A stretch of 64,000 nucleotides of DNA. Source: an uncultured Oscillospiraceae bacterium. Its GTDB lineage: Bacteria; Bacillota; Clostridia; Oscillospirales; Ruminococcaceae. Positions 5,907-40,073 of this stretch are shown here, piece after piece (the first letter of the stretch is position 1; each line of letters starts with the position of its first letter). The translations under genes were made by a program, and so were the position numbers. The notes under the pieces are model-generated. The model had not been told where the DNA came from and made no database searches. It saw only the letters and a program-made list of their open reading frames with translations. The stretch covers positions 62,001-126,000 of the forward strand of contig UQGL01000003.1 in NCBI GenBank assembly GCA_900540595.1, written 5' to 3'.

Positions 5907-7329
5907 AGAAATCCTCCACGGCCTTTTTGCGGTCAAGCAGTTCCGCAAAGCGGTCGATGTACTCGGTGGGATATTTGAAGTTGAAAATGCGCTCGATCTT
6001 GCCGCGGCGCTGCCCCGGAATGACAAGCTTGGTGGAGCCGCCCGCACCGGCCGAAAGAATGGTGTGGACCTCCTCCATAATATAGATATTATACAGACAC
6101 TCAAAACCCGGCTTGGCCCAGCCGATATTTTCCAGATTCTGCAGCGTGCCCTTCTGGCGGTACATATAGTAGGGTCGATAGCCGGCCTCGGCCAGCATAC
6201 TACAGCTGTCGAGCATGGCGGCAACATCGGCATAGTCAGCAGTGCGATGCTCGACCACGATGTTGGACGCCCGCTTGAGGGTCAGCGTGTGGACCGTGAT
6301 GTTCTCCGGCGCAAGCGCGATGGCCTGACGCAGGCTGGCTGCAAAGCCTTCGACCGTGTCCCCCGGCAGGCCCGCGATCAGGTCCATATTGATGTTGGTG
6401 TGCCCTGCAGCGCGCGCGGCCGCAAAGCAGTCGATAATATCCTGTGCCGTGTGGCGGCGGCCGATGTTCTGCAAGACCGTGTCCGAAAAGGTCTGTGGGT
6501 TGATGGAAATACGCGTCGCGCCGTATTTTTTGATGATGCGCAGCTTTTCAGCATCGGTGCAGTCGGGGCGGCCGGCCTCAACGGTGTATTCGTCCAGTTT
6601 CGCTAAATCAAAGGTCTTGGCGATGTGGGACATCAGCTGTTCCAGCTGCGGCGCGTTCAGGCTGGTGGGCGTGCCGCCGCCGATATAGAAGGTGCGGATA
6701 TGCAGCCCGGCGCGGTCGGCGGTCCGGCGGATGGCGGTCAGCTCCTCACAAAGCTTATCGACATAGGGCTGCACAAGCGCGCGGGTGGCTTTATCCCCCA
6801 CCGTGCGGGAGACAAAGCTGCAGTAGCTGCACCGGGTCGGGCAGAACGGGATGCCCGCATAGACGCTGCAGTCCATCGGGTCGGCGGCGTCCAGAACCGG
6901 CTTTTGCAGGTCGGCAATGCCGAGCGCGAGGGCAAACTTTTCCGGCGCGCAGCCAAAGTGGTCAAGGAAGCGCGCGCGTATCTCGTCCTCACCCGCACCG
7001 GCTGCGCGCATGTCGTGAATGATGCGCACCGGCCGCACACCGGTCATCATGCCCCATGGCGGCTTGATGCCGGTTGCCCGGCAGAGCATACCGTACAGCA
7101 GCCGGCACAGGGCGTACTCCGCATCCTCGCCCTGCGGGCGCAGGGCGGTTTGCCACTGCAGCTTACCGTTGAGGCGCAGCAGGGCCAGATCGGTGCATTG
7201 GTGGCTCTGCGCCAGCACAAAATCACCCTCCTGCGGGAGATTTTCCGACTTCTCCGCACCGGGGAAAAACAGCCGTGCGGTATGCTCAGCTTCATAGCCC
7301 GCTGCGGGGCCGCGTAAAATGATCTGCAT
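5869..7329 (-). CDS. hemZ: Coproporphyrinogen III oxidase-like radical SAM protein HemZ
   Basis: A 486-residue radical SAM enzyme. The cluster motif is FCPTRCSYCSF (CxxxCxxC, mid-protein), followed by the glycine-rich GGGTPTSL and, further on, NPQTFSD and the HemN/HemZ-type segment VHTLTLKRAS. HemZ-type proteins are annotated as oxygen-independent coproporphyrinogen dehydrogenases, but many clostridial copies may do other chemistry; no other haem genes are in the window. The start at 7329 forms TGATG with the stop of the MBL gene; an ATG at 7338 is equally possible. The order recJ-relA-dtd-MBL-hemZ is conserved in Clostridia. Confidence 0.85.
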   Translation of the reverse strand: MQIILRGPAAGYEAEHTARLFFPGAEKSENLPQEGDFVLAQSHQCTDLALLRLNGKLQWQTALRPQGEDAEYALCRLLYGMLCRATGIKPPWGMMTGVRPVRIIHDMRAAGAGEDEIRARFLDHFGCAPEKFALALGIADLQKPVLDAADPMDCSVYAGIPFCPTRCSYCSFVSRTVGDKATRALVQPYVDKLCEELTAIRRTADRAGLHIRTFYIGGGTPTSLNAPQLEQLMSHIAKTFDLAKLDEYTVEAGRPDCTDAEKLRIIKKYGATRISINPQTFSDTVLQNIGRRHTAQDIIDCFAAARAAGHTNINMDLIAGLPGDTVEGFAASLRQAIALAPENITVHTLTLKRASNIVVEHRTADYADVAAMLDSCSMLAEAGYRPYYMYRQKGTLQNLENIGWAKPGFECLYNIYIMEEVHTILSAGAGGSTKLVIPGQRRGKIERIFNFKYPTEYIDRFAELLDRKKAVEDFYAHYTSQTLHQP

Positions 7330-7934
7330 CAAAACCATGCCTCATTCATATAGGGGTTGGAGCGGCGCTCCTGCCCAAGGGTGGTAAAATCCTCATGCCC
7401 GGGCAGGACTTTTGTTGCATCGGGCAGCGGCAGTTCTGCCAGCAGGGACAGGCTTTTTGCCATCTCCTGCATGCTGCCGCCGGGGAAATCCGTGCGCCCG
7501 CAGGAGCCGGCAAACAGCGTATCTCCGCTGAACAGCAGCCCGTAGCAGGACAGGCAGACGCCGCCCGGCGTGTGGCCGGGGGTGTGGTAGATCTTGAAGG
7601 TCAGCTCATCGATCGTAAGCTCGTCACCAGCCGGCCATGTGTCCGTGATGACATCGGGCGTCAGGGGCAGCAGCTGGCTGCCCTGCGCATCGGCAGGGTC
7701 CATATAGACCTTGCAGCCGGTTGCTTTTTTGAGGGCTGCCACCGCCCCCACATGGTCGTAGTGACCGTGGGTCAGCAGGATATGGCTCAGCGTTGCGCCC
7801 GCCTCCTCCAGCGCCTTCAGATAGACGCCCGGCTCGGCCGCGGCATCGATCAGGATGCCGTGCTTGGCGTTCGTGATAATTAAAAAGGTATTCGTGTACA
7901 GCGGCGGAACGCCGTGGATATGCTGGATGTTCAT
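7329..7934 (-). CDS. Metallo-beta-lactamase-fold hydrolase (glyoxalase II-like)
   Basis: A 201-residue single-domain MBL-fold protein with the full metal site: HGHYDHVG (about 56-63), the second His in HTPGHTPGG, and FSGDTLFAGSCGRTDFPGG carrying the bridging Asp, plus a late LPGHEDFTT. This pattern is that of YqgX/GloB-like hydrolases of thioesters such as hydroxyacyl-glutathione or bacillithiol conjugates; the real substrate is unknown. It lies between dtd and hemZ in the conserved relA neighbourhood and is coupled to hemZ. Confidence 0.88.
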   Translation of the reverse strand: MNIQHIHGVPPLYTNTFLIITNAKHGILIDAAAEPGVYLKALEEAGATLSHILLTHGHYDHVGAVAALKKATGCKVYMDPADAQGSQLLPLTPDVITDTWPAGDELTIDELTFKIYHTPGHTPGGVCLSCYGLLFSGDTLFAGSCGRTDFPGGSMQEMAKSLSLLAELPLPDATKVLPGHEDFTTLGQERRSNPYMNEAWF

Positions 7935-7956
7935 TGCGTCCTCCCTTGAATTTTGC

Positions 7957-8412
7957 TTACTTTTTCCACTCGTCGGTATCGATCACGATGGTCACCGGGC
8001 CATCGTTCACAAGGTCGATCTGCATGTCCGCGCCGAATTCGCCGTGCTTGACCTCCTGCAGGCCCTGCCGATTCATCTCATCAAGGAACTTTTCATAGCA
8101 CGGCACCGCCAGCTCCCCCTTGGCGGCATGGCTGAAGCTTGGGCGCTTGCCTCTGGCCGTATCACCGTACAGGGTGAAGTTCGACACCACCAGCGCCGAA
8201 TAGCCCAGCTCGACCGCGCTGCGGTTCAGCCTGCCATCCTCGTCCTCAAAAATGCGCAGGTGCGCGCATTTGTCAGCCAGCTTCGGCACAATATCGATCT
8301 CATCGGTTTCACGCACGCCCAGCAGGATGACCAGACCCGGGCCGATGGCGCGCGGCTCACCGCCGTTGACCGTAACGCTTGCGCGGGTTACGCGCTGTAT
8401 GATTGCTCGCAT
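7957..8412 (-). CDS. dtd: D-aminoacyl-tRNA deacylase
   Basis: A 151-residue Dtd: MRAIIQRVTRASVTVNG at the start, the active-site stretch VSNFTLYGDTARGKRPSF and the C-terminal Gly-cisPro motif NDGPVTIVIDT that discriminates against L-aminoacyl-tRNA. It hydrolyses D-aminoacyl- and glycyl-tRNA-Ala mischarges. Length and motifs are those of the family. It follows relA on the same strand, separated by a short repeat element, an order also found in Bacillus. Confidence 0.96.
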   Translation of the reverse strand: MRAIIQRVTRASVTVNGGEPRAIGPGLVILLGVRETDEIDIVPKLADKCAHLRIFEDEDGRLNRSAVELGYSALVVSNFTLYGDTARGKRPSFSHAAKGELAVPCYEKFLDEMNRQGLQEVKHGEFGADMQIDLVNDGPVTIVIDTDEWKK

Positions 8413-34878: not shown

Positions 34879-34915
34879 AAAGGCTACATCCTATTTTGGA
34901 TGTAGCCTTTTTCTT
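34879..34915 (+). terminator. Terminator of tRNA-Ser
   Basis: AAAGGCTACATCC (34879-34891) pairs with GGATGTAGCCTTT (34898-34910), then TTCTT. Confidence 0.9.
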
Positions 34916-34940
34916 GTCTTTGCGGACGCTGCAGTCACAC

Positions 34941-35002
34941 AAAACCGGATACCGTGTGCGGGGTTATTCAGCCCTGCGCACGGTATCTGGTTTTGCTTTT
35001 TC
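34941..35002 (+). terminator. Second long hairpin before blaI, terminator-like
   Basis: A 19-nt arm from 34941 (AAAACCGGATACCGTGTGC) pairs with 34976-34994 with two wobble/mismatch positions and is followed by GCTTTTTC. It backs up the tRNA terminator and insulates the BlaI promoter at 35034. Confidence 0.65.
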
Positions 35003-35033: not shown

Positions 35034-35062
35034 TTGACATTCTCGGTCTATTGTAGTAGACT
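35034..35062 (+). promoter_or_regulatory. Sigma-A promoter of the blaI-M56/M23 operon
   Basis: -35 TTGACA (35034-35039), 17-bp spacer, -10 TAGACT (35057-35062). The first operator copy covers the spacer and -10. Confidence 0.75.
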
Positions 35063-35093
35063 GTAAACAAAGATAGGTCTATTACAGTAAACC
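35045..35093. promoter_or_regulatory. Two BlaI-type operators
   Basis: GGTCTATTGTAGTAGACT (35045-35062) and GGTCTATTACAGTAAACC (35076-35093) are two related 18-bp sites 31 bases (three helical turns) apart. The first contains the dyad GTCTA-ttgtag-TAGAC and the TACTACA word (reverse strand) known from BlaI/MecI operators. They overlie the -10 and the start region, as expected for autorepression. Confidence 0.75.
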
Positions 35094-35107
35094 AAAGGAG
35101 TTACCCC

Positions 35108-35485
35108 ATGCTGAACCATGAACCGCTCCGCCTTGCCGATGGCGAATACCGCTTTGCCTGCCTTGTGTGGGACAATGAGCCGCTGCCCAGCGGGCAGCTT
35201 GTTACGCTGGCCGCCGCCGCGCTGGGCTGGAAAAAAAGCACCACCTACACCGTTTTGAAGAAGCTCTGCGAGCGCGGTGTGCTGCAAAATTCAGACGGTC
35301 AGGTGACAAGCCTGATCCGGCGGGAGGATGTCCAACAGGCCGAGAGTGCCGCCGTGGTGGACAAGACCTTCGGCGGCAGCCTGCCGCGCTTTGTAGCCGC
35401 CTTCCTCAACTCAAAGCCGATCAGCGAGGCCGAGGCTGCCGAGATTCGCGCTCTGCTGGACGCCGCCCAACAAAAGGAGGGGTAG
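35108..35485 (+). CDS. blaI: BlaI/MecI/CopY-family transcriptional repressor
   Basis: A 125-residue repressor: winged helix with TLAAAALGWKKSTTYTVLKKLCERG and a C-terminal dimerisation helix region (FLNSKPISEAEAAEIRALLD). In known systems the repressor is cut after the BlaR1/MecR1 sensor is activated. The following gene, two bases after its stop, encodes an M56 protease of that type, so the pair is intact, but no beta-lactamase or PBP2a follows. The ATG has AAAGGAG six bases upstream and is preceded by two BlaI-type operators. Confidence 0.93.
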   Translation: MLNHEPLRLADGEYRFACLVWDNEPLPSGQLVTLAAAALGWKKSTTYTVLKKLCERGVLQNSDGQVTSLIRREDVQQAESAAVVDKTFGGSLPRFVAAFLNSKPISEAEAAEIRALLDAAQQKEG

Positions 35486-35487
35486 TT

Positions 35488-37404
35488 ATGCGCAGTATCG
35501 TACTTTCCTTTTTGCTGCTCAGCGCACGCGGCGCGGTGGCCGCAGCGGCAGTCTGGTGCGTTTGCCGGGTGCTGCGCCGCGCCCACGCCCCCAGCCGTCT
35601 GCTGTGCTGGCTGTGGCTGGCCGTAGGGGTACGGTTCGTGCTGCCGTGGGGCATTCCGCTGCAGCTGCCCCGCCCGCAAAGCGCCCCGCTGGCTGCAGCC
35701 GCCGACACCGTGCAGGAGCTGGGTGCGCTGCCGCTTCCGGATTTGGCACCGGCAGCACCCACCGCTGCGGCCGCGCTGCCGTGGTACACCCGGCTGACCC
35801 CCTGGCATATACTTGCGGCAGTCTGGCTGGCCGGTGCGCTGGTGCTGGCGCTGCGCGGCATCGCGGGCTATTGGCGGCTACGCCGCAGCGTTGCGCTGGC
35901 CTGCAAGGCACCGGACGGCTGCTACGGCGGAGCCTGTGTGGCTGCACCGTTCACGCTGGGCATCCTGCGCCCGCGCATCTATCTGCCGGACAGTCTGCAG
36001 GGCGCGGCCCGACAGGCCGTGCTGCTGCATGAGCAGACCCACATCCGCCGCGGCGACCCGCTGACCAAGCCGCTGTTTTATGCTGCAGTCTGTCTGCACT
36101 GGTTCAACCCGCTGGCATGGCTGGCGTTCCGCGGTTTTGAGCGCGACATGGAGGCCGCCTGTGATGAGGCCGCCGTGCAGGGCCGCCCCCTGCCCGAGCG
36201 CAACGCCTACTGCGAAACGCTGCTGCAGTTTGCTGTACAGGGGCAGCGGGTGCCGGGCAGCCTGACCTTCGGGCAGGGCAGCGTAAAGGGGCGCATCGTG
36301 CATCTGCTGCACTACCGCCGTCTGGGCGCGGGGGCACTGGCGGTCTGCATAGCCGTGGTCGGCCTCTGCTTTGCTGCCTGCATGGTCCGTCCGGAGCTGT
36401 CCGCACAGCCCGAGACCACAACAGCCGCACCGGAAAGCCCGGCCACTGCCGAGACCGCCCAGCCAGCCGAAGCGCCCGCACCGGTGGTACAGACCTCTGC
36501 CCTGCCGACATTGAGCGATGCCGCGAACAGCCCGCGATTCCTCTGCCCGGTCGATTACAAGTACATCTCCCGTTTCCGTTCAGACGAGGACGGCCACCGC
36601 GGCGATGACCTCTGTGCGGATGAGGGCACCGAGATTTACGCCGCCGCGGACGGTGTTGTGCTGGCCGCGCAGGAGCATTACAGCTGGGGCAATTTTGTGG
36701 AGATCGACCACGGTACCGACGCCGACGGTCTGCGCTGGGTCACGCTGTACGCCCACATGAAGTCCTGCGCCGTGCAGGTCGGGCAGACCGTCACTGCCGG
36801 GCAGGTCATCGGGTATCTGGGGCACACCGGCAACACAACCGGCAACGCCTGCCATTTTGAGATGCAGGTCAATGGCGTCCTTACGGAGCCGCGCTATTTT
36901 ACCGCCTACACAGGCAGTGATGCCGCCGAGCTGACGCAGGAAAAGGCAGACGAAATTCTGGCCGAGGCCGTGCGCCGCGCTGCTTCCGACCAGACGACTG
37001 CCGTTGATGGAGCTGCCGCCCTTTCCGGCGTGGATCTCTTTACCCTGCCGGTCGCGCCCCCGCCGCAGGTCAGCGGCTATGCCCCCGAAAACGGCCACTC
37101 CGGCATTGACTTTGCCGCCGAGGAGGGTGCGGAGGTTTACGCCGTTGCCGGTGGTATCGTGACCGCCGCCGACTACGATGTTGAAAAGGGCAACTATGTC
37201 GTCCTTGACCACGGCGGCGGGCTGGAAACGGAGTATCAGCACATGAAGTCGCTGCTCGTCTCTGCCGGGCAGTCCGTGGTCCAAGGCCAGGTCTTGGGAT
37301 ATGTGGGCAGCACCGGCAATTCCACCGGGCCGCACCTGCACTTTGAGGCACGGCAGGACGGCGCGCCTGCAGACCTGACCGGGACTGCCCTATTAGCGGA
37401 GTAA
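35488..37404 (+). CDS. M56 (BlaR1-type) membrane protease fused to two M23 peptidase domains
   Basis: A 638-residue protein. Residues 1-300: BlaR1/MecR1-like integral membrane M56 protease with helices at about 3-27, 37-57, 105-127 and 280-300, zinc motif HEQTH (181-185) and a downstream Glu in ERDMEAACDE (218-227). Residues 300-345: Thr/Ala/Pro linker outside the membrane. Residues 350-470 and 525-632: two M23 peptidase domains. The first has H370, D374 and H423 but reads NACHFE where the family has HxH, so a catalytic His is replaced by Ala454. The second is intact (H537, D541, H585, PHLHFE). The usual penicillin-binding sensor is absent. Co-transcribed with blaI. M56/M23 fusions are known in Firmicutes; the function is not. 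Confidence 0.9.
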   Translation: MRSIVLSFLLLSARGAVAAAAVWCVCRVLRRAHAPSRLLCWLWLAVGVRFVLPWGIPLQLPRPQSAPLAAAADTVQELGALPLPDLAPAAPTAAAALPWYTRLTPWHILAAVWLAGALVLALRGIAGYWRLRRSVALACKAPDGCYGGACVAAPFTLGILRPRIYLPDSLQGAARQAVLLHEQTHIRRGDPLTKPLFYAAVCLHWFNPLAWLAFRGFERDMEAACDEAAVQGRPLPERNAYCETLLQFAVQGQRVPGSLTFGQGSVKGRIVHLLHYRRLGAGALAVCIAVVGLCFAACMVRPELSAQPETTTAAPESPATAETAQPAEAPAPVVQTSALPTLSDAANSPRFLCPVDYKYISRFRSDEDGHRGDDLCADEGTEIYAAADGVVLAAQEHYSWGNFVEIDHGTDADGLRWVTLYAHMKSCAVQVGQTVTAGQVIGYLGHTGNTTGNACHFEMQVNGVLTEPRYFTAYTGSDAAELTQEKADEILAEAVRRAASDQTTAVDGAAALSGVDLFTLPVAPPPQVSGYAPENGHSGIDFAAEEGAEVYAVAGGIVTAADYDVEKGNYVVLDHGGGLETEYQHMKSLLVSAGQSVVQGQVLGYVGSTGNSTGPHLHFEARQDGAPADLTGTALLAE

Positions 37405-37408
37405 CAAG

Positions 37409-38638
37409 ATGAAATACAGGCACTTCCCCGCCGCTGTATTGGCGGCGGGGCTGCTTTTTTATACCCTTTTTTCGGGCTTTGCCGCACAGGCAGCAGACAA
37501 AAAGGGCGAATTGACGCAAAAACAGACCGAGACCCGGCAGGAGTATGAGGCCGCGCAGTCCGCACTGGCCGCGCTGCAGGCGCAGCAGGCCCAGACCGAG
37601 AGCGAGATCCAGTCGCTGAACGGACAGGCCGCCGAGCTGGCGGGGCAGATTGAGGCGGTAACCGCTGCCGTGCAGCAGGCACAGACAGAGCTTGACGCGC
37701 GTTTGTCTGATGCGGAAGCCGCACGGGCTGCCCGGGACGCCAAGCAGGCAGAGTACGAGGCACGCCTTTCCGTCTGCAAGGAGCAGCTGCGCGCAATGCA
37801 GCGGCTGGACGGCGGCGGGGCGCTCTGGCTGCTGACACAGGCCAAAAGCCTGTACCAGCTGCTGACCTTTGACACCGTGCTGCGCCAGATGAGCGCCAAA
37901 AACAGTGCCGTTCTGGCCGAGCTTGACGCTGAGGCCGCTGCGCTGGAGCAGGCCCGCGCCGAGGCCGAGGACGCTGCCCGCCGCGCTGAGACCGCAAGAG
38001 CCGAGCTGGAGGGCCAGCAGACTGCCCTGCACACCGCGCAGAGCCAGCTGGAAGCCGCCCTGCTGGACGCCAACAGCACCCTGACCGCCCAGCAGGCCGC
38101 CGCACAGGCCCAGACCACCGTGACCGATGCCGCGAAAAAGGCCTACGAGGAGGCTACTGCCGCGCTTGATGCCTATGTGCGGGCGCAAAGCCGCCGCTAC
38201 ACGACGGCAGAGCTGCGGCTGACCAGTCTTGATTTCCGCTGCCCGCTGGACAGCTACGGGCGCATCACAACACAGTTCGGCGAGGCGGACCCATGGGGCA
38301 TCCCCCACAGAGGCACCGACTTTGCCGCGCCGGGCGGCACACCGATCTACGCCATTGCGGACGGCATCGTCAGCGCCGCGCGGGCGATGAACAGCTACGG
38401 CAACTGCGTACAGGTCAGCCACGGCACAGCGGATGACGGCTGCCGCTACGACAGCCTGTATGCTCACATGAGCAGCATCGCCGTGGCGGAGGGCACCGCC
38501 GTGCGGCGCGGCGATCTGCTGGGCTATGTCGGCAACACCGGCAATGTCTACGGCACCGGCGGCGGGTATCACCTGCATCTTGAGCTGCGGGTGAACGGCA
38601 GCCGCACAGACCCGCTGGGCTATGTGCCGAGCCGATAG
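37409..38638 (+). CDS. Secreted coiled-coil M23 peptidase (EnvC/murein hydrolase activator-like)
   Basis: A 409-residue exported protein: signal peptide to about residue 28 (AAQAADKK cleavage area), a very long Ala/Gln/Glu-rich coiled coil (about 30-265) and a C-terminal M23 domain with HRGTDFAAPGGTPIYA, LYAHMSS and YHLHLEL. The metal-binding and HxH residues look complete, so it may be an active endopeptidase, unlike EnvC itself. It starts 4 bases after the M56/M23 gene and has no separate promoter, so it belongs to the BlaI operon. Confidence 0.88.
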   Translation: MKYRHFPAAVLAAGLLFYTLFSGFAAQAADKKGELTQKQTETRQEYEAAQSALAALQAQQAQTESEIQSLNGQAAELAGQIEAVTAAVQQAQTELDARLSDAEAARAARDAKQAEYEARLSVCKEQLRAMQRLDGGGALWLLTQAKSLYQLLTFDTVLRQMSAKNSAVLAELDAEAAALEQARAEAEDAARRAETARAELEGQQTALHTAQSQLEAALLDANSTLTAQQAAAQAQTTVTDAAKKAYEEATAALDAYVRAQSRRYTTAELRLTSLDFRCPLDSYGRITTQFGEADPWGIPHRGTDFAAPGGTPIYAIADGIVSAARAMNSYGNCVQVSHGTADDGCRYDSLYAHMSSIAVAEGTAVRRGDLLGYVGNTGNVYGTGGGYHLHLELRVNGSRTDPLGYVPSR

Positions 38639-38711
38639 GGATGGATTTTATCGGCGGCCTGCGGAAACACCCATCTCCCCTGCGGACGATTTGAAAACGA
38701 GGTTTCCTATT

Positions 38712-40073
38712 TTGACCTTCGGTGATTTTTTGTATTTTGTCGGCTTTCAGGTCGAATATACCGCCGTGCGCCTCGCGCGCAGGATGTGGGCGGCAGCACA
38801 GTGGGCTGCGTGGGCCGCGCTTACGCTGCTGGCCGTGCTGCTGCGGCCTGTGGTGCGGGCGGCGGCAAATTTCAAGGCGGCGCTCTGCGCCCCGCGGCAG
38901 CTGGCAGATTATCTGCTGCCTGTGCTGGCCTGCGCAGCGCTGGCCGTCTACCTGCACACAGCGCTTTCCCAGCCCTTTGTGCTGCGGGTCGAGGTAAACG
39001 GCCAAAGTGTCGGCTATGTGGCCGGTGAAGCAGCCTTTGAGGCAGCGCGCGCTGATGTGCAGGCCCGCATCAATGGGGTGGCCGACTGGCAGATACAGCC
39101 GGAGTACACCCTTGTCCGGGGCGGCGCAGATACCCCTACTCTGACCGAGCGGGAAATCGCCGATGCCATCCTGCGCGCCTCCGGCGGGGAGATCACCGAG
39201 GGGACCGCCGTCTACATAGACGGCGCGCTGCAGTTCATCACCACCGAGGGCGACCATCTGCGGCAGTTCCTCTATGCGCTGCGCCGCCCCTGGCAGCGCG
39301 AGGGTGTGCAGACAGCCTTTGTGCATGGGCTGCGCATGGTGGACGGCATCTACCCTGCTGCAGCGGTCACACCTTACCCTGATCTGATAGAGGCACTGCA
39401 GCGCGGGGACGGCCTGTTGCAGGTCAAGGTCGTGCGGTATGAGACTGTGACAAAGGCGCTGCCCTTTGAGACACAGACCGTTGAGGATCCCGCGCTGGAC
39501 TTTGGCAAGACCGAGACCGTACAGGACGGGCAGGACGGCGCCGAGCAGGTCACAAGCGAGATCACCGAGATAGACGGAACGGTCGCGGCTGTGCAGGCCG
39601 TGGATGTGCAGCTTTTACAGCCCGCCGTGCCGGAGATCATCCACCGGGGCACACGGCTGAAAAGCGGCATGATCGGCAAGCTCGGCACCGGCAGCTTTCT
39701 CTGGCCTGTGCCGGGGTATTCGGGCATCAGCCGATGGGCTAATCTACCCTATGGCCACCGCGGGGTGGACATCACCGCAGCCTACGGCACACCCATCTAC
39801 GCCGCCGATGCCGGCACCGTCATTGCCGCAAAGTGGCATAACCACCCCACCATGAGCTGGGGCTACTATGTGGAGATCGACCACGGCAACGGCTACAAAA
39901 CGCTCTACGCGCACATGTGCCGCTTTGTTGTACAGGCCGGGCAGACCGTGGAAAAGGGTCAGTTGATCGGCTATGTAGGCGCTACGGGTGCCGCCACCGG
40001 CAACCACTGCCATTTTGAAATGTATTACAACAACGCCCTGATCAGCGCACGGAATGTGTTCCCGGATATATAA
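38712..40073 (+). CDS. Membrane-anchored G5-domain M23 peptidase
   Basis: About 453 residues: one or two N-terminal membrane helices, a 150-residue region with signs of a ubiquitin-like/YPEB-type fold (VLRVEVNGQSVGYVAGEAAF), a G5 domain (VKVVRYETVTKALPFETQTV to EIIHRGT) that binds peptidoglycan sugars, and an M23 domain (YGHRGVDITAAYG, LYAHM, GNHCHFEMY). All M23 residues are present. I chose TTG 38712 with GAGG nine bases upstream; an ATG at 38622 overlapping the previous gene would add an unlikely 30-residue head. Third M23 gene of the locus. Confidence 0.85.
   Translation: MTFGDFLYFVGFQVEYTAVRLARRMWAAAQWAAWAALTLLAVLLRPVVRAAANFKAALCAPRQLADYLLPVLACAALAVYLHTALSQPFVLRVEVNGQSVGYVAGEAAFEAARADVQARINGVADWQIQPEYTLVRGGADTPTLTEREIADAILRASGGEITEGTAVYIDGALQFITTEGDHLRQFLYALRRPWQREGVQTAFVHGLRMVDGIYPAAAVTPYPDLIEALQRGDGLLQVKVVRYETVTKALPFETQTVEDPALDFGKTETVQDGQDGAEQVTSEITEIDGTVAAVQAVDVQLLQPAVPEIIHRGTRLKSGMIGKLGTGSFLWPVPGYSGISRWANLPYGHRGVDITAAYGTPIYAADAGTVIAAKWHNHPTMSWGYYVEIDHGNGYKTLYAHMCRFVVQAGQTVEKGQLIGYVGATGAATGNHCHFEMYYNNALISARNVFPDI

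Follow-up and report, generated by a model that had tools for sequence, protein, structure and literature searches.

Positions 35034–40073 of the analysed stretch of DNA (the window; 64,000 nucleotides (nt) of contig UQGL01000003.1, assembly GCA_900540595.1, from an uncultured Oscillospiraceae bacterium) carry four genes in a row, which an earlier interpretation of the letters alone (the sequence-only reading) had taken for a BlaI-controlled operon. All four open reading frames (ORFs) were recovered in this interval on the forward (+) strand, to which every window coordinate below refers: blaI, a gene for an M56 protease fused to two M23 domains (the M56-M23 protein), a gene for a coiled-coil M23 hydrolase (ccM23, gene 3) and a gene for a G5-M23 hydrolase (gene 4). 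The literature is cited here from excerpts of the papers named.

Repressor, M56-M23 protein and promoter

The product of blaI (35108–35485, 125 aa) is a BlaI/MecI-type winged-helix repressor, with a Penicillinase_R domain matched at E 1.3e-17 (64.6 bits against a curated cut-off of 22.6) and a phmmer match to MecI (1okr/1sd6, E 1.2e-4). BlaI is cleaved between Asn101 and Phe102 (PMC9834060). At the aligned, putative cleavage site, the window protein reads A-F against N-F in MecI, with the P1' Phe retained here and at the same position in 16 of 16 aligned sequences.

The M56-M23 gene (35488–37404, 638 aa; Peptidase_M56 E 1e-41, two Peptidase_M23 stretches) follows after 2 nt. Its M56 domain (residues 8–270; 35509–36297) has the BlaR1 fold and carries HEQTH at 181–185, E222xxxD226, D190 and Y241. 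All seven BlaR1 catalytic positions that were checked are retained, the protease residues are invariant, and the HEXXH...ExxxD arrangement with its supporting Asp and Tyr predicts a protease of the BlaR1/MecR1 type. The NCBIfam BlaR1 models matched only this protease part, with scores far under their cut-offs, and a PDB sequence search with the whole protein did not list BlaR1, whereas structure comparison did recover it. Domain searches gave no match to a penicillin-binding sensor of the class D-like type in this protein, the extracellular part of which consists of the two M23 domains; they thus agree with the earlier claim of an M56 protease in which two M23 domains replace the penicillin-binding sensor. 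They also found no beta-lactamase or penicillin-binding protein among the four genes.

The promoter of the row (TTGACA-17-TAGACT) extends from the start of the -35 hexamer at 35034 to the end of the -10 hexamer at 35062, and the same arrangement recurs in relatives. Two putative BlaI operators, both already proposed from the letters, are present and conserved ahead of blaI itself: operator 1, GTCTATTGTAGTAGAC (35046–35061), is an inverted repeat lying between the -35 and -10 hexamers and overlapping the latter, and operator 2, GTCTATTACAGTAAAC (35077–35092), is an inverted repeat downstream of the promoter. With up to three mismatches allowed, these are the only two operator matches across the whole window, and 0 of 100 shuffled sequences reached this match count.

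A precedent for such a site is BlaI_0696 of Clostridium thermocellum, for which DNA affinity purification sequencing gave paired inverted GTCTAT repeats, electrophoretic mobility shift assays were made on single sites, and autoregulation was reported, the regulon comprising its own operon with two BlaR1 genes and few other genes (PMC8457756). The repeats are 5 nt apart there, but 4 nt apart in the most regular of the sites found here.

Operator sites and the regulon in relatives

A scan of 15 genomes with the strict pattern TTGACAN{5,9}GTCTAN6TAGAC found it once each in G001, G002, G003, G008–G012, G024 and G140, twice each in G004, G005 and G007, three times in G006 and not at all in G112, which has two sites slightly different from the pattern; the reversed pattern gave 0 sites in all 15. 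Every single-site match is the promoter of blaI/M56-M23. In four Gemmiger genomes an unlinked ccM23-G5-M23 gene pair follows such a site, namely the second one in G004, G005 and G007 and one of those in G006, and the promoters of these unlinked pairs carry a double operator like that of the window in three of four cases, with an imperfect second copy in G006. Two of the three G006 matches are located elsewhere, at C131, and the blaI promoter of this genome reads TTGACT. The C131 site (L160:103), GTCTAGCGTGCTAGAC, is a palindrome that resembles the operator and has -35-like hexamers on each strand.

The looser pattern GGTCTAN6TAGAC gave 28 matches (24 distinct sites) in 13 of 14 genomes, against 14 matches for its reversed control, G008 having none because its site reads AGTCTA. 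These matches lie at 19 promoters, 13 of blaI/M56-M23 and six of ccM23, and at no other promoter. In the more distant genomes G024 and G140, the operator-bearing ccM23 gene stands beside serS (Pfam-checked in G024), which is a third location, and the G024 protein is 41% identical to gene 3. The scanned genomes carry additional BlaI genes, in many cases with additional M56 genes as well, none of which is at a GGTCTAN6TAGAC match. Because the matches sit at ccM23 promoters and at none of these other BlaI or M56 genes, the hydrolase genes appear to be tied to the BlaI/M56-M23 regulator independently of gene order. Chance adjacency of the four genes can be ruled out, since the operator accompanies the hydrolases even where these are encoded at a different site in the genome. 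The same observation makes it less likely that the operators fail to bind this BlaI, an outcome that would have counted against the sequence-only reading. The idea that the site is common to every M56 system of a genome found no support either, because G009–G012, with three to nine M56 matches each, have the operator only at the M56-M23 promoter; elsewhere, for instance in C. thermocellum, such sites may serve other M56 systems.

The sequence-only reading would have failed had the gene order occurred in no relative, and a scan of contigs yielded at least 79 loci (L001–L079) in which this could be followed. The order is complete in two loci of Gemmiger formicilis (L001, L002), and L003 lacks only gene 4. 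In L011, from a metagenome-assembled genome, blaI, M56-M23 and ccM23 are in order, with an in-frame stop breaking the M56 gene (6977–8317), and in L014 the start of a ccM23-like gene behind blaI/M56-M23 is cut by the contig end. Among these at least 79 loci, an M23 gene stands directly behind M56-M23 in four whole cases and one cut case of 16 (L001–L014, L024, L027), while an M23 gene was present in the available flanks of one (L033) of the 63 M56 loci without M23 (L015–L079 minus L024 and L027). A purely local operon of one strain is ruled out by L001–L003 and by near-identical proteins from many contigs, a few of them named Gemmiger sp. Seven further Gemmiger loci (L004–L010) have blaI and M56-M23, with no ccM23 found in their available flanks; in the six complete M56 genes among them a coiled-coil-like stretch replaces the second M23, and the gene of L009 is cut by a contig end. 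At L006 (8913–10112) and L010 (8979–10508) a second M56 gene lies in tandem, the second copy of L006 ending without a detected M23.

The M23 domains of the M56-M23 protein

The first, membrane-proximal M23 domain (M23a, approximately residues 351–470; 36538–36897) has the zinc ligands H370, D374 and H456 and the middle His, and Ala454 replaces the first His of HxH, leaving the catalytic site incomplete. This His does not ligate zinc, and activation of the water is its proposed role (PMC9662197). The second domain (M23b, approximately residues 521–632; 37048–37383) retains all five site residues (HxxxD, the middle His and HxH) and is predicted to be a peptidase. The same five positions were typed in 251 M56-M23 proteins, one more of 252 having no detected M23, and the tally, which includes many near-identical proteins, gave all three zinc ligands of the first M23 retained in 247 of 251 and its first His of HxH gone in 204 of 251; for a few rows (L024, P0121, P0127, L013), the M23 typed as the first is situated near residue 590 and does not adjoin the membrane helix. 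For the second M23, the first His of HxH is retained in 232 of 233 two-domain proteins, and all five positions are intact in 227 of 233. Among 49 representatives, ten keep the first-M23 His and the others have A, Q, C, S, L, T or M in its place, with at least ten changes between His and not-His, rare states and the count of changes being inflated by the inclusion of rows that differ in site state. An M56 protein with three M23 stretches (Pfam) is also encoded at L138:3009-5495.

The top three PDB sequences matched by M23a are engineered H247A forms of Pgp3 of Campylobacter jejuni, by a narrow margin over ShyA. Pgp3 H247A is inactive and was solved with a pentapeptide and with a cross-linked tetra-tri peptide, the scissile bond lying in the site (PMC6978369). 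The same residue is naturally Ala in M23a, although the Pgp3 form is a laboratory mutant of an enzyme and not a sensor. Because its zinc ligands are kept, its catalytic His is usually lost, and its top PDB sequence match, Pgp3 H247A, is inactive yet holds peptides, M23a resembles a natural substrate trap. The earlier proposal that the M23 modules "read or cut" peptidoglycan can accordingly be divided, on the residues present: the first M23 looks like a reader, and the second M23 and genes 3 and 4 look like cutters.

The pentapeptide held by Pgp3 H247A ends in D-Ala-D-Ala, and this also bears on another explanation, by which M23a would be an indirect antibiotic sensor, detecting the uncross-linked pentapeptides that accumulate under a beta-lactam or glycopeptide block, and the operon would be a response to wall-antibiotic stress. 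The M56/BlaI circuits characterised in PMC9834060 and PMC7593790 do respond to beta-lactams, but no penicillin-binding domain was matched in the M56-M23 protein and the outputs are wall hydrolases, seemingly harmful during a synthesis block, so that we consider such a function unlikely.

Fold comparison placed the LytM domains of EnvC and DipM at the top of the M23a matches, tied with true peptidases, and a protein partner is therefore a live rival as the ligand: M23a could read an amidase or a divisome protein instead of peptidoglycan. The retention of the zinc ligands in nearly all of the typed proteins, for which a domain that only binds protein would have no use, makes this distinctly improbable in our estimate. 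Conservation of these ligands alongside a varying catalytic residue, together with the fact that all outputs are M23 zinc peptidases, would suit a domain that reports the zinc supply to zinc-dependent hydrolases, but M23a retains the middle His and the remainder of the peptidase site, and the operator matches occur only at blaI/M56-M23 and ccM23 promoters; we give a zinc-status sensor hardly any credence.

The near-universal integrity of the second M23 raises the question of whether the M56-M23 protein is primarily a membrane-tethered hydrolase, with M23b doing the main work and wall-state control being secondary, and the absence of any other detected output in some genomes would fit such a role. 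It is very unlikely, however, in view of the replacement of M23b in the six complete Gemmiger genes mentioned above and the invariance of the M56 protease residues.

Dedicated hydrolases and the proposed circuit

Gene 3 (37409–38638), which begins 4 nt behind the M56-M23 gene, encodes an M23 domain (E 1.1e-27) after a coiled-coil-like stretch and a signal-peptide-like start; coiled coils were assigned by eye and from weak Pfam coiled-coil matches, and the signal peptide by eye, with no predictor. In the ccM23 tree, which excludes the G024 and G140 copies, the regulon copies of Gemmiger and of L011 form one clade (support 99/98) that groups with FtsEX-type hydrolases (95/94), identifying gene 3 as a paralogue of the FtsEX-linked coiled-coil (EnvC/PcsB-like) hydrolases. 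The order ftsE-ftsX-M23-S41 was Pfam-confirmed in G002 only, where the paralogue adjoins ftsE-ftsX, and inspection by eye showed matching neighbours in L151 and L153; gene 3, unlike these hydrolases, lies away from ftsEX and bears the putative BlaI operator. Besides the regulon copy, a second, weaker ccM23 match (E 1e-30 or better) is present in G001–G006 and G009.

Gene 4 encodes a G5 domain (E 1.2e-16) and an M23 domain (E 7.4e-31). Its ORF as listed (38622–40073) overlaps ccM23 by 17 nt. Because homology starts at residue 32–33 in four unlinked relatives and a TTG at 38712 is preceded by GAGG, the true start is probably this TTG (38712–40073) and not 38622; the matched frame reaches residue 20 in G001 and residue 14 in G002. 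The regulon G5-M23 proteins form one clade (98/87), and longer G5-M23 paralogues were found in 12 of 12 genomes searched. Both gene products have complete HxxxD, middle His and HxH motifs and are predicted M23 peptidases, and HxH is intact in 21 of 21 of their relatives, regulon and housekeeping copies alike. Since ccM23 and G5-M23 paralogues exist in most of the genomes searched, the circuit would mostly drive additional, dedicated hydrolase copies.

It has long been asked how bacteria keep the cutting of the wall in step with its synthesis, and to our knowledge few direct sensors of wall state are known. With a probability of about 0.55, we interpret the locus as a circuit of the BlaR1 type, working by repressor cleavage, in which a natural substrate trap for peptidoglycan serves as the sensor and governs a set of reserve hydrolases. 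Support at the level of sequence comes from the regulon, from the unaltered residues of the protease, from the catalytic His that the sensor has usually lost and from the paralogy of the hydrolases; BlaI binding, the ligand, the direction of the response, BlaI cleavage and hydrolase activity are inferred. BlaI, presumably as a dimer, would sit on the two operators and repress the operon to which it belongs, together with the ccM23 and G5-M23 genes. The M56-M23 protein would be a membrane protein with a cytoplasmic protease and with M23a outside, where M23a would hold zinc and a stem peptide or cross-link, cutting it poorly or not at all, and occupancy of its groove would signal a surplus of uncut peptides or a shortage of endopeptidase activity. 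By analogy with BlaR1, the occupied M23a would switch on the M56 protease, which would cleave BlaI, and the reserve hydrolases, in most genomes searched extra copies of the FtsEX-linked and G5-type enzymes, would then be made.

In BlaR1, a beta-lactamase-like domain with slow turnover senses the ligand and the M56 domain cuts BlaI (PMC7593790, PMC9834060). The systems of staphylococci (BlaR1/BlaI, MecR1/MecI) share with the present one an M56 gluzincin with the same catalytic residues and fold, an adjoining BlaI-type repressor, the position of the repressor cleavage site and, as sensor, a wall-related enzyme with impaired turnover; they differ in that the sensor here is M23 rather than class D beta-lactamase-like and the outputs are M23 wall hydrolases. 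M56/M23 proteins have been noted among multi-enzyme architectures that make up less than 1% of hits, and the excerpted parts of that source report no M56 role in peptidoglycan cleavage and describe neither a regulon nor a sensor state for them (PMC9662197). No description of an M56-M23 regulon was found in open papers.

Several observations weigh against this interpretation. Other BlaI paralogues are present in the regulon genomes and could bind the same sites. G008, G010 and G011 carry blaI/M56-M23, yet no operator-bearing ccM23 promoter was found in them; the G010 contig ends near the M56 gene, neither regulon hydrolase copy was found in G008, which has two tandem M56-M23 genes, and the output in these genomes may be the M56-M23 protein alone or an unknown one. 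In eight further M56-M23 loci (L131–L138), ccM23/G5-M23 directly follows M56 in none, and no blaI was detected at L135. No second ccM23 was found in G007, and in G140 only the operator-bearing ccM23 was found, so a reserve copy is not seen everywhere. Finally, the ten representatives that keep the first-M23 His mean that turnover has not been lost everywhere. The wall-state feedback of the sequence-only reading is thus partly supported, having gained the gene order in relatives and the division of the M23 modules into reader and cutters.

That an M23 substrate trap in place of the penicillin sensor would gauge uncut peptides or cross-links directly, giving homeostatic control of autolysins unrelated to antibiotics, is a tentative proposal to which we allow slightly less than an even chance. 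If the proposed circuit is correct, it would be a compact wall-state sensor in which a disabled copy of an enzyme family serves as the gauge for the live copies, in parallel to BlaR1, whose stalled beta-lactamase-like domain controls a live beta-lactamase. It would also suggest that gauging the wall may be the general role of M56/BlaI circuits, with antibiotic sensing as one case.

Among the minor features of the locus and its relatives is a conserved RNA hairpin, followed by a T run, within the opening codons of gene 3 (37426–37450). A 66-nt stretch containing it folds 3.6–3.8 standard deviations better than shuffled sequences in the window, L001, L002 and L003, and in the first 25 codons of gene 3, 18 of 20 codons for invariant amino acids are identical in all four, against 44% gene-wide (binomial p 2.9e-5). 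It is a possible attenuator or translational coupling element and may determine how much hydrolase is made relative to the regulator. In L131 (4588–7449) and L132 (4555–7411), blaI/M56-M23 is followed on the same strand by a gene for a pseudouridine synthase (assigned by Pfam in L131) and then by a long G5-M23 gene, which stands two genes beyond M56 and past gaps of more than 100 nt. Upstream of the operon in the window, two terminator-like hairpins (34879–34991) separate it from a tRNA-Ser gene, and an AsnC-type gene matching the next gene of the window lies downstream in L156–L158, with one ORF intervening in L156 and L157.

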